Part shown: positions 15,632 through 22,924 of the stretch, one piece after another
How positions within the stretch are numbered: the stretch's first letter is position 1
How the letters are laid out: each line of letters opens with the position of its first letter
Assembly: GCA_946566685.1 (NCBI GenBank)
Contig: CAMNXA010000015.1
Coordinates: forward strand, 1-64,000
Direction: 5' to 3'
From: an uncultured Lachnospiraceae bacterium
GTDB taxonomy: Bacteria; Bacillota; Clostridia; Lachnospirales; Lachnospiraceae
Length of the DNA: 64,000 nt
The notes under the pieces: generated by a model
Database searches by the model: none
Told to the model about the DNA's origin: nothing
The model's input: the letters and a program-made list of their open reading frames with translations, nothing else
Program-made: the position numbers and the translations under genes

Positions 15632-17038
15632 TTATCGCCTCCTGTCCGTTTTCTTCTTGATATATTTCTTATAGTCTCGCTCATACGAATACTCAAAAGC
15701 GTCAAGCGAATCTATGTCACTGGTGCCATCGTCCAGACGTTCCAGCTCTGTATTCTTCGGATTCCAGACCGCCATACTGATAGCTGATGTAAGCGTCTCG
15801 CAATCCTCCGTATAAAGAAACCGGTCTTTTGCCGTGAGCGTTGTCAGGGTAAAAATCCGGTCTGTGATCTGTCTCTTTAATGCGTCCCTGGGCCGCAAGT
15901 TTCCCAGCTCATTCTCCACGAGTGCGGATTCAAGCCCCCTTATGAGAACCTGTTCTGCAGAATCGCAGTAAATATTGGTGATGTACCCATACAGGCTTAG
16001 AATCATCCGTACAAAATCCAGAAACATCCTTGCCAGGTCTGCCGGGTCCGTGTCCGTGGCGTCATGCCATTCAGACGCAAGAGCAATCAGTTTTTCATAT
16101 CCCAGCGTGGGAGCCGTTGCAACAAAGGCATGGCCGGAGCCATTACCCCCAAAGTCAACGCCTACATTGATTTCCAGAAGCTCGCCTCTCTTGTTCATCT
16201 TCTGGACGTCCTCACGCTTTATAAAGAATTTCCCGTCTTTTGCGGTGATTGACGCCGCCAGCTTTGGATATACAAGCCCCTCTGCAATACTTCTTTTCCC
16301 CAGGATATCCCGCAGGTACCAGATACTCGCCATATCGTACTGACTTATGATTTCCTCCAGACGTTCCTCGGTAATGGTGATGTTATCGAAGATTGTCATA
16401 GCCTGGTAGTTGAATCCGCCTTTCAGTTCCCCCTTTTCCGCTTTTTCTGCGTACTTGTCGATATACTCCGTATAGATCGGAGCCTTTGGGTGTGACGGGT
16501 TCAAATCCCAGAATATCTTTCTGCGCTTTGCCGCAAGCTGACGGTTGAAAGCCTCCTTTATGGTGTTATCGTGATGCAGGTTTATCTCCGTGGCTATCCA
16601 CATACCGTAAGAGTTACCACGGATTTTCTTAAAACTGTCCGCTTTGGAGCCGCCAGCAAAAATGACTATCCGCTCCCGGCCTCCCGTGTATGGGCCTCTT
16701 ATCCGCAGACAGTCATTGTCCTTATACTTCCCCCACCGGCACTGGCCACGGAAGATATATTCCAGGCCGAAACCGTTGGCGTCGCCGATATTCAGTTTTG
16801 CGTTCGCTATGGTAGAGCCCGTTGCCAGGTGGAACTTATCGGGCGTTGTCATGAGCTCATGGGCAAAGGCAAACACATTATCAATCGTCTTTCCGGAACG
16901 AACCGCCCCCTCCAGGATGTTAAATGTGCAATACCGGCAGGCCCGGATATATTCTTTGTGCTTATCCCCAAACCGGAAATTGATTGTCTTTCTCTTCCTG
17001 AGAGGCTTTCCGTCCGGGTTATTCTTCGCCGTATACAT
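15632..17038 (-). CDS. terL: Terminase large subunit
   Basis: The 468-residue packaging motor has a Walker A motif GAVRSGKT at residues 44-51 and a Walker B-like WIATEIN with the catalytic Glu. The C-terminal RNase H-like nuclease has acidic residues in NVGVDFGGNGSGH, IYCDSAEQ and DSLDAFEY. This is the PBSX/Terminase_3 type. It overlaps the small subunit by 20 bases and its stop lies 4 bases before the portal ATG. The size is typical and both active sites look intact. Confidence 0.92.
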   Translation of the reverse strand: MYTAKNNPDGKPLRKRKTINFRFGDKHKEYIRACRYCTFNILEGAVRSGKTIDNVFAFAHELMTTPDKFHLATGSTIANAKLNIGDANGFGLEYIFRGQCRWGKYKDNDCLRIRGPYTGGRERIVIFAGGSKADSFKKIRGNSYGMWIATEINLHHDNTIKEAFNRQLAAKRRKIFWDLNPSHPKAPIYTEYIDKYAEKAEKGELKGGFNYQAMTIFDNITITEERLEEIISQYDMASIWYLRDILGKRSIAEGLVYPKLAASITAKDGKFFIKREDVQKMNKRGELLEINVGVDFGGNGSGHAFVATAPTLGYEKLIALASEWHDATDTDPADLARMFLDFVRMILSLYGYITNIYCDSAEQVLIRGLESALVENELGNLRPRDALKRQITDRIFTLTTLTAKDRFLYTEDCETLTSAISMAVWNPKNTELERLDDGTSDIDSLDAFEYSYERDYKKYIKKKTDRRR

Positions 17039-17549
17039 CAGCCTCTACCTCCTCCAAATCCTCAACCTCTTTGTTGGTTCCTGAATCACGCTCCTTTTTG
17101 TACTCGAACTCTTCACGCCGTAGCTGTAAGGTCTGCTGCTGTATGCTCTCTTCCCGGTTCATGCGCTCTAGTTCCGTTGCCAGCCGGAGAAATTCTTTCA
17201 CATCTTTTGGCGTCATTTCCTCCGGTTTAATCTTTTCCAGCGCCTCCATAGCTTTTCTCTGTAATTGCAACGACATTTTGATGTGGCGGTCTTGCATCTT
17301 TTTCCGCTCGGAAACCGCCTGTTTTCTGGCCTCTTCCGCTATGCTGGCATCATAAGCGTCCGCCCTGGCCCGCCAGTCATACTTCAACTTCCAACGGTGG
17401 CAAAGAGTACCACTTTTATTCAACTGTCTTGCAACCGCTGAAATTGTCCTCTTCTCCCCCATGTCACGGTAGGCAGCAAAGGCTTCAAAGGCGGGGCCGC
17501 TCTCTCCGGGCTGTCGTTCCCATGCTTCTCTGTCATTGTCCTTTGACAT
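17019..17549 (-). CDS. Terminase small subunit
   Basis: The 176-residue protein is directly upstream of and overlapping terL. Residues about 15-65 form an HTH-like DNA-binding region (AFAAYRDMGEKRTISAVARQ, then WRARADAYDASIA). A long helical part follows (LQRKAMEALEKIKPEEMTPK), ending in an acidic tail. This pattern fits small subunits that recognise the pac or cos site. The packaging site itself was not identified. Confidence 0.8.
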   Translation of the reverse strand: MSKDNDREAWERQPGESGPAFEAFAAYRDMGEKRTISAVARQLNKSGTLCHRWKLKYDWRARADAYDASIAEEARKQAVSERKKMQDRHIKMSLQLQRKAMEALEKIKPEEMTPKDVKEFLRLATELERMNREESIQQQTLQLRREEFEYKKERDSGTNKEVEDLEEVEADVYGEE

Positions 17550-21113: not shown

Positions 21114-21142
21114 AAAAAAACAGCGCATCCGCAAATACGCTG
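21114..21142 (-). terminator. Terminator after the HAD-like gene
   Basis: On the minus strand CAGCGTAT and ATGCGCTG pair as an 8-bp stem with one G-T wobble and a 6-base loop, followed by seven Ts. It is 36 bases past the HAD stop and 30 bases before the ParB gene start, so the downstream late genes must be reached by read-through. Confidence 0.75.
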
Positions 21143-21177: not shown

Positions 21178-21699
21178 TCAACCGAAGAGGGATAACTGCT
21201 CCGGTTCCGGCTCTTTCTGCTTTATCTCGTGGTAGCTGTCCGCACTCTTTATGAACTTATCATAGGGAGCCGCCTCAATCCCGTACCTGCCGTACATGGT
21301 TCTCGTCCTGGGATTGCTCTCTACCGCATAGAACTGAATCGGATTCATACCATGTTTCGGGAACACGAACCTTTTCAGTGCCGACTCTTTAAATACGGGC
21401 GGTTCAGCGTTGAAGTCATTGAAATAATATTCCTCCGGCTGCCAGCCGGTCTTGCGGAGAATATTCTCCATGGTGGCTTTCATCTGGTAGTCCGGTCTGG
21501 CCGTTATGATGATAACGTAATCGCCCCTGACCGCCTCGATCAAATCCCTCCGGTATTCCTCGTACTGCATCCGCTTTGTAAAGGGCCGCAGCATACGGGT
21601 TTCCTGTTGGTTTCCGACCAGGGTATAATTCAGGTCAAGCAAACAAATCCTCCTACCGTCTGCCACCTTTGACAACTCGCCGCTCATTACTTCACTCAT
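21178..21699 (-). CDS. HAD-superfamily-like protein with altered catalytic motifs
   Basis: The 173-residue protein has the layout of small HAD phosphatases. ICLLDLNYTLVGN is the motif I region (DLNYT where DxDxT is usual), IIITARPDYQ is motif II, a Lys-containing KESALKRFVF segment follows, and AVESNPRTRTMYGRYGI is in the motif IV position (ESN where DD is usual). The nucleophile Asp is kept but the second Asp is Asn, so activity may be changed. ATG 21699 is 7 bases after AAAGGAG and overlaps the RHH gene by 8 bases. A terminator follows. It could act on nucleotides or DNA ends, or be a binding protein. Confidence 0.65.
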   Translation of the reverse strand: MSEVMSGELSKVADGRRICLLDLNYTLVGNQQETRMLRPFTKRMQYEEYRRDLIEAVRGDYVIIITARPDYQMKATMENILRKTGWQPEEYYFNDFNAEPPVFKESALKRFVFPKHGMNPIQFYAVESNPRTRTMYGRYGIEAAPYDKFIKSADSYHEIKQKEPEPEQLSLFG

Positions 21700-21892
21700 G
21701 CTCATTCTCCTTTCGGCCACTCCTGGGCCTGCGCTTTTTCAGTCTGCGGATTCCGTCTCTTACAGCGTCCGCCCGGTCTTTCCCGGTTTCCTGGCAATAC
21801 TGGTTCAGTATCGCTTCACACTCTGCGTCTATCCGGACAGATATCTTGCTCTGCTTCGGATTCTTTGTGGGGCGCCCTCTCTTGACTTCCAC
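21692..21892 (-). CDS. Ribbon-helix-helix DNA-binding protein
   Basis: The 66-residue protein has a basic start (VEVKRGRPTKNPKQSK) and then ISVRIDAECEAILNQYCQET, an RHH pattern, and a very basic C-terminus. The RGRPTKNPK start is typical of small phage RHH regulators. Start is GTG 21892, 7 bases after AAAGGAGG. A sigma-70 promoter (21927-21955) lies just upstream, and the gene begins a two-gene unit with the HAD-like protein. It may autoregulate this promoter or act on late genes. Confidence 0.75.
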   Translation of the reverse strand: MEVKRGRPTKNPKQSKISVRIDAECEAILNQYCQETGKDRADAVRDGIRRLKKRRPRSGRKENEHE

Positions 21893-21926
21893 ACGACCGC
21901 CTCCTTTCCACTGTTGCCCTAACAAT

Positions 21927-22000: not shown

Positions 22001-22029
22001 AAAAGAGCCTACCAGCGGCGGGCCCTTTT
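22001..22029 (-). terminator. Terminator ending the structured RNA
   Basis: Two 13-base arms (plus-strand AAAAGAGCCTACC and GGCGGGCCCTTTT) pair with one mismatch and two G-T wobbles around a 3-base loop, with A and T runs at the base. It can work in both directions. Confidence 0.75.
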
Positions 22030-22188
22030 CGGTGGTTGTGGATGATCGGAGTAGCTTTCCATGCCAGGCCGTATGCTTTTATCGGGATAGGGGAGGTTTT
22101 GCGCCTCCCCGTCCGTAAGGGATAAATGAGCATGGCGTAGTCCTGAATACCGGTTCAGTCTACGAATGGCAGGCAAGTCAATCTTGCC
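22001..22188 (-). ncRNA. Candidate structured non-coding RNA of about 188 nt between late regulator and late operon
   Basis: Transcription from the promoter at 22195-22224 would begin near 22188, exactly at a GGCAAG/CTTGCC hairpin. Further stems are CGTAG/CTACG with CTGAA/TTCAG (22136-22164), CCATGC/GCATGG (22130-22135 with 22059-22064), TTTATC/GATAAA nested inside it (22121-22126 with 22078-22083), and GGGGAGG/CCTCCCC innermost (22090-22110). A 13-bp terminator closes it. No frame with a ribosome site is present. It could be a cis-acting antitermination RNA or a trans-acting small RNA. I do not recognise a named family. Confidence 0.65.
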
Positions 22189-22194
22189 AGATAC

Positions 22195-22224
22195 ACTATA
22201 ACATCCTGGGAAATGAATGGTCAA
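22195..22224 (-). promoter_or_regulatory. Sigma-70 promoter of the structured RNA
   Basis: On the minus strand TTGACC and TATAGT are separated by 18 bases (17 if TTATAG is the -10). The same two hexamers form the early promoter at 34614-34642. The predicted start falls at the first base of the first hairpin. Confidence 0.7.
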
Positions 22225-22287
22225 CGTAAAAAAAACGAAAATTTATGTCCGTGGCTCTCTTATAGCCGCAAGGACAGGCAAAACCAC

Positions 22288-22895: not shown

Positions 22896-22924
22896 TTGAC
22901 ATTTTTCCCAAAACGCCTTATAAT
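22896..22924 (+). promoter_or_regulatory. Perfect consensus sigma-70 promoter facing against the prophage operon
   Basis: TTGACA, exactly 17 bases, TATAAT on the plus strand. The -10 is flanked by the 6-bp inverted repeat AACGCC/GGCGTT (22912-22930), a likely operator. It lies just upstream of the late regulator start and points into the early operon, so its product would be antisense or a short RNA. Confidence 0.7.

Follow-up and report, generated by a model that had tools for sequence, protein, structure and literature searches.

We analyzed a window of 64,000 nucleotides (nt; contig CAMNXA010000015.1, positions 1 to 64,000, assembly GCA_946566685.1) from an uncultured Lachnospiraceae bacterium. 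The window carries a prophage of the Lachnospiraceae type that reads on the minus strand, and all positions given here are minus-strand features of the window unless otherwise noted. A promoter, a predicted structured leader RNA of about 188 nt, and a terminator-like hairpin were confirmed to lie ahead of its packaging operon. Promoter followed by terminator is also the general layout behind regulators of the same family (phrog_1558), and this is a more important result than the RNA of the window itself. We read the element as a late control region resembling lambda pR'-tR', in which the adjacent regulator would start transcription and/or license read-through and the RNA would be the terminated leader; we give this reading about even credence. 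Expression of the late genes probably depends on some means of passing this terminator.

Promoter and terminator behind the late regulator gene

The late regulator gene (22911-22288; 207 amino acids; phrog_1558 of the PHROGs database, E 3.2e-35) is followed by a sigma70-type promoter, TTGACC-18-TATAGT with a TG, at 22224-22195. It has 10 of 12 matches in a promoter scan, in agreement with an earlier note on this DNA that had claimed a good promoter there. Relatives L006, L007, L004, and others carry a promoter of the same kind (L-numbers label individual loci; relatives were found by regulator profiles, with one more found by its promoter-and-start pattern). The direct repeat (T/A)CGTT occurs twice, 11 base pairs (bp) apart, at 22223..22238, overlapping the -35 box, and identity over 55 loci also peaks at lag 11; we propose these repeats as a candidate operator of the regulator. 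The predicted transcript start is near 22188, at the first base of a hairpin. Around the start in many of the 55 regulator loci stands GTAAAATT, a -10-like word about 8 nt behind the real -10. A -35-like TTGACT within the first hairpin of the window was rejected, being kept in neither L006 nor L037.

The leader ends in a terminator-like hairpin of 9 + 3 bp at 22029-22001, that is, with 12 pairs and not the 13 of the earlier note. The U-tracts are better in four diverged relatives than in the window. A second terminator, which the earlier note had placed at 21114-21142, was found by the strict rule described below at 21145-21118, where it closes a small cassette ahead of the ParB-like and packaging genes; L003 has a similar hairpin in the same place (by eye). 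The packaging genes, among them those for the small and large terminase subunits (15632..17549), sit behind both terminators. Three more hairpins that the strict rule lists with T tails (12724-12689, 8115-8097, and 6912-6874) fall between genes when compared with the reading frames. Processive antitermination would permit a single late promoter to serve genes behind several terminators; alternatively, there would be internal promoters, as described for phi13.

The layout was counted in 66 non-redundant phrog_1558-type loci, which were 88 before 22 near-duplicates were collapsed and which include weak matches down to 31 bits; L115, found later, is not among them. A loose rule for promoter then terminator was satisfied in 56 of the 66 loci. 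The shuffle background of this rule was high (18-24 of 66), and a strict rule was therefore adopted. By the strict rule the layout was present in 46 of 66 loci, with the terminator within 100 nt in 38. Of 43 other gaps on the same strand in these loci only 1 showed it, and four shuffles gave 0, 2, 1, and 1 of 66. With a promoter threshold of 9.0, the counts were 35 of 66 loci, 0 of 43 gaps, and 1, 0, 0, and 1 in the shuffles. Eight named phages were also assessed (the named records except L004 and L005, which were already among the 66), and six had a strict leader terminator: phi11, phi13, TP901-1, Emery, and two Latilactobacillus phages. Among the RinA/ArpU loci over the family cut-off, 26 were read, and 13 of these had a strict terminator starting within 150 nt of the assigned stop codon; this count has no control, L133 and L135 are near-identical there, and at least three loci (L125, L128, and L130) are doubtful in stop position or contig end.

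The mechanism that we propose is as follows. The regulator, made from the last gene before the promoter, would bind the 11-bp-spaced repeats at the -35 box. When it is absent or low, transcripts from the late promoter would stop at the leader terminator and yield the structured RNA of about 188 nt. As it accumulates, polymerase would be activated at the promoter and would run through the leader terminator and through those further along the operon, with expression of the packaging and virion genes as the outcome. The conserved fold of the leader in one clade would be an extra feature, perhaps for RNA stability or for tuning of read-through. Transcription and read-through at the promoter of the window are both inferred from sequence.

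A number of results weigh against this reading. The tail of the leader terminator is weak, UUUUGCAUUU only, because the U run pairs with an A run, and the hairpin was listed neither by the terminator scanner nor by the strict rule. The strict rule was failed by 20 of the 66 loci, and the leaders of A118 and BCJA1c lack a strict terminator. Across the 64 kilobases the same rule flags 37 minus-strand and 51 plus-strand places, many of them within genes; therefore, single later hairpins of the operon prove little and are only hints, and the weight rests on the controls of the strict promoter-plus-terminator count. By a 4-of-6 rule, the window has no -10-like element 5-10 nt past its -10. Such an element is present in 22 of the 55 loci (shuffle mean 8.9, highest 16), and 12 of the 55 have the -10-like word 8 nt past the -10, an enrichment over shuffles, whose maxima averaged 4.8 and reached 8 at most; in these counts the loci are not independent of each other. 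A looser NANNAT word, CAAGAT, is found in the window at 22186-22181, and is not found in L006, L037, or L107 (by eye).

Published work also weighs on that side. Alt and RinA figure there as activators. PMC13123087 never uses the word "terminator", and its phi13 reporter, which extends no more than 50 bp beyond the start, is active only with the phage and Ltr. The T run of the phi13 leader terminator begins near +50 by our own count. The reporter thus ends at about the T run, yet it is Ltr-dependent, and Ltr must therefore activate initiation there. By analogy with phi13, whose Ltr belongs to another family than the phrog_1558 regulator, activation of initiation is probably part of the control. 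The Ltr data are compatible with a second action besides initiation; however, a plain activator with a damping terminator is a serious rival. In that scenario, the regulator would only activate initiation, like Alt, RinA, and Ltr, and the terminator would end the early operon and damp leakage in the lysogen, with enough late transcripts passing it. The Ltr-dependent reporter reaching only +50, the weak U-tract of the window, and repeats at the promoters as for Alt and Ltr, whose reported targets are repeats (PMC13123087), all fit such an activator. It fits less well with the near-consensus -35 of many relatives (by eye), with a promoter upstream of the terminator in so many loci, and with the possible further terminators in the same operon, and we consider it rather unlikely as the whole explanation.

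Fold and conservation of the leader RNA

The earlier note had placed a hairpin at the very start of a structured RNA of about 188 nt, and this held for the predicted transcript. The RNA from about 22188 has a minimum free energy of -64.6 (z -2.86; 2 of 200 shuffles equally low), and its first 140 nt, without the terminator, reach z -3.41 (0 of 300 shuffles). The plus strand folds less well (z -1.75). The 5' hairpin P1 (22188-22183/22177-22172), in which one pair has changed on both sides in relatives, stands at the predicted transcript start. It is followed by a three-way junction (22062..22171) consisting of a closing helix (22171-22167/22066-22062), an arm with a CCGG loop (22163-22154/22147-22137), and a nested arm (22136-22068) with an apical stem (22110-22104/22096-22090). 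Beyond the junction lies the stretch AGCUACUCC (22048..22056), for which only a 3-bp hairpin is predicted and in place of which relatives keep GCUACUCC or GCUACCC. In relatives, ACAGCUA could instead pair with the 5' strand of the closing helix, but the window does not allow this pairing. The loop of the second arm (22155-22148) reads AACCGGUA, and its CCGG palindrome is kept in all six aligned sequences; this palindrome could allow loop-to-loop pairing of two RNAs.

Near-identical RNAs were found in L034, L035, and L036, and homologous, diverged RNAs in L006, L037, L107, and L115, each between a regulator gene and a ParB-like gene (in L115 the regulator end was recognized by eye). The alignment holds six related sequences, two of them nearly identical, and so only five distinct lineages. 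Pairing cells made up 94.0% of this alignment, compared to 89.5 when shuffled and 44-56 for slid structures. The compensatory changes that the earlier note had named as a check are present: both partners have changed in four pairs, where shuffles average 2.2 such pairs and 42 of 500 reach four. The covariation score was 0.219 versus 0.133, reached by 0 of 500 shuffles, and sliding the structure by +1 lowered it to 0.189. Because the alignment misplaces the junction's closing helix, this helix was excluded from the covariation count; a search of its own recovered it, with UGCCA/UGGCA in the window and UGGCUGUUC/GAACAGCUG in L107, for example. The leaders of L006, L037, L107, and L115 without their terminators gave z of -4.5 to -5.4. 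Taken together, these data support conservation of the fold; the evidence is good, not overwhelming, given the few and related sequences.

The fold appears to be confined to a small clade. A covariance model found only its own genome among 77 genomes of the genus and 397 of the family (stricter filters in both), and on 33 chosen sources gave strong scores only for its own six sequences. DNA homology was found in none of 50,697 phage records and, among 194 genomes, only in the own genome. Single-sequence protein searches of viral contigs gave no relatives, whereas profile searches did. The window has no Rfam 15 match at gathering score, and a search around the element that admitted E values up to 10 listed just two weak hits, both on the plus strand; the EAR-like RNA entertained in the earlier note was accordingly not recovered. 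The clade would thus add a conserved structured RNA without an Rfam 15 match. A group II intron piece (RF01998) separates the leader terminator from the ParB-like gene in L115 (L115:703-764) and is missing from L107. Insertion behind terminators is known for some group II introns.

These results bear on what the RNA itself may do. A cis antiterminator like put of HK022, also raised in the earlier note, would be a folded RNA that binds polymerase and takes it past its own and later terminators. Stems with covariation right at the predicted transcript start are consistent with such an RNA, as are the HK022 put RNAs, which PMC9378689 describes as about 70 nt with two stem-loops and no need for a dedicated protein. 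However, the fold is limited to a small clade while the terminator layout is wide, and many loci have only about 40-65 nt between the estimated start and the terminator end (loose rule), which hardly leaves room for it. Because of these short leaders, and with the strict terminator within 100 nt in 38 of 66 loci, a put-like RNA is a poor candidate for the shared mechanism, and we judge it quite unlikely in the window. If the relatives do share a way past the terminator, a folded RNA can hardly be its basis; promoter, regulator, or polymerase would have to provide it.

Alternatively, as the earlier note had also proposed, the RNA could be a trans-acting small RNA of the prophage, made in the lysogen, with the terminator merely as its 3' end. 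The conserved fold with its 5' hairpin and the retention of the AGCUACUCC stretch would suit this function, but in many relatives the transcript would be hardly more than the terminator. Moreover, a target search that covered the window and not the host genome found no excess of the complement of that stretch (4 matches with at most one mismatch versus 8.9 expected, the sole exact one being the RNA's own complement), and we regard a trans-acting role as unlikely.

Translation within the leader is another scenario. The earlier note had seen no credible frame. A 71-amino-acid frame with a TTG start begins in the -35 box, overlaps the promoter, is lost in four diverged relatives, and was rejected as a gene. 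A shorter frame opens at the nested arm and is open in all six sequences (41-56 amino acids in five; in L107 it continues into the next gene), with its phase kept up to an AGCTAC stretch in five of the six. Translation of this frame could decide whether the terminator forms, for which its openness and phase would argue. Against a leader peptide are the lack of a Shine-Dalgarno sequence (by eye) and the loss of phase in L006. L107 and L115, the one pair tested, gave no sign of coding selection on this frame, with 8 differences distributed 4, 2, and 2 over the codon positions and 2 of 8 changed codons synonymous. Such a peptide is highly improbable, and the frame appears, without full proof, to be a by-product of the conserved RNA.

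Regulator protein and prophage context

The C-terminal part of the phrog_1558 regulator resembles sigma region 4 in an AlphaFold2 model. No match to Q was found by PHROGs, Pfam, NCBIfam, or PDB sequences, an absence that excludes nothing. Likewise, of the 50 matches listed from a structure search, mostly sigma region 4, none had Q or AlpA in its title, and this also excludes nothing. The regulator was not listed for RinA (TIGR01636) or ArpU (TIGR01637) at E up to 1 and did not reach the family cut-off; a profile-profile match to RinA-type proteins was weak and covered the helix-turn-helix only (E 0.0089, probability 4.6).

On the minus strand, the order is early-region genes (one of them for a metal-dependent phosphohydrolase), the phrog_1558 regulator, the leader, the small cassette, ParB-like proteins, the terminase small and large subunits, and the portal. 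The cassette (21955-21118) is moron-like. Its segment 21692..21955 comprises its own promoter (21955-21927) and a gene for a small DNA-binding protein (phrog_876, E 1.4e-11) whose true start is probably near 21893, inside the open reading frame; the cassette further has a gene for a phrog_32036 protein (21178..21720; PHROGs match) and the second terminator. It is absent between the leader and the ParB-like gene in L006, L037, L107, and L115, where the ParB-like gene stands instead. A plus-strand promoter-like site with a perfect TTGACA-17-TATAAT (22896-22924) lies at the start of the regulator gene, directed away from the gene and antisense to the upstream early genes. In other loci, the interval from the late regulator gene to the late genes contains tRNA genes, namely tRNA-Lys and tRNA-Ala in TP901-1 and tRNA-Lys in FP_Brigit, and L033 has a tRNA-Leu just downstream of the regulator; the tRNA positions are L116:4135-4376, L005:7475-7551, and L033:3600-3693.

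Comparison with known systems

The region shows both features by which PMC13123087 defines the Alt/RinA/Ltr type, direct repeats at the late promoter and a regulator gene just upstream, and packaging genes lie downstream as in those phages. The regulator also has a weak helix-turn-helix similarity to RinA-type proteins. However, phrog_1558 differs from the PHROGs of RinA, Alt, and phi13 Ltr, its protein in the window has 207 amino acids versus 140-156, and the phi13 repeats are 18 bp. The leader terminators that we found in phi11, phi13, and TP901-1 are unmentioned in PMC13123087. Among the papers listed in a literature search, none dealt with leader terminators or with antitermination at the promoters of Alt, RinA, or Ltr; the search covered few subscription papers and no original RinA or Ltr papers and is weak to that extent.

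Late control in phages of Gram-positive bacteria has so far been described as activation. With a terminator between most such promoters and their genes, a read-through step may have been overlooked, even in phi11 and TP901-1. It is possible, although on balance doubtful, that antitermination is the general means by which Firmicutes phages activate late expression. The phrog_1558 family, together with Alt, RinA, and Ltr, would then bind repeats at the -35 and ride on or modify polymerase past a promoter-proximal terminator, as counterparts of Q built on a sigma-region-4-like domain, and the folded leader of the clade would be an RNA elaboration of this switch. The layout offers a simple test, and lysogens would be expected to contain short prophage RNAs as a class.

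Two other phage RNAs can be compared with the leader. HK022 put is likewise a structured RNA close to a phage transcript start; however, put serves early promoters, whereas the fold in the window is larger, is followed by its own terminator, and is clade-specific. The cabRNA of staphylococcal phages is a structured phage RNA from the terminase region, but according to PMC10686824 it is made from the terminase genes and not from a leader, and is sensed by the cyclase of a cyclic-oligonucleotide-based antiphage signaling system (CBASS). Among proteins, AlpA of Pseudomonas aeruginosa (PMC7969949) is a positive regulator that works by antitermination at a promoter preceding an intrinsic terminator. 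It is likened here by description, and unlike the regulator of the window it is a host regulator of a lysis locus, with its site between -35 and -10.

In layout, the region resembles lambda pR'-6S RNA-tR', a comparison that the earlier note had proposed and that was upheld by the widespread order seen in relatives. Lambda 6S RNA is 194 nt. Regulator gene, promoter, leader RNA of about 190 nt, intrinsic terminator, and late genes follow in the same order in both, and in both a DNA site for the regulator is proposed in the promoter. The regulator of the window differs in its resemblance to sigma region 4, with no Q match seen, and packaging-side genes follow its leader. Its repeats lie at and above the -35, whereas the Q site lies between -35 and -10, and the window lacks a clear counterpart of the -10-like element that makes polymerase pause in Q systems (both as given in PMC6606751).
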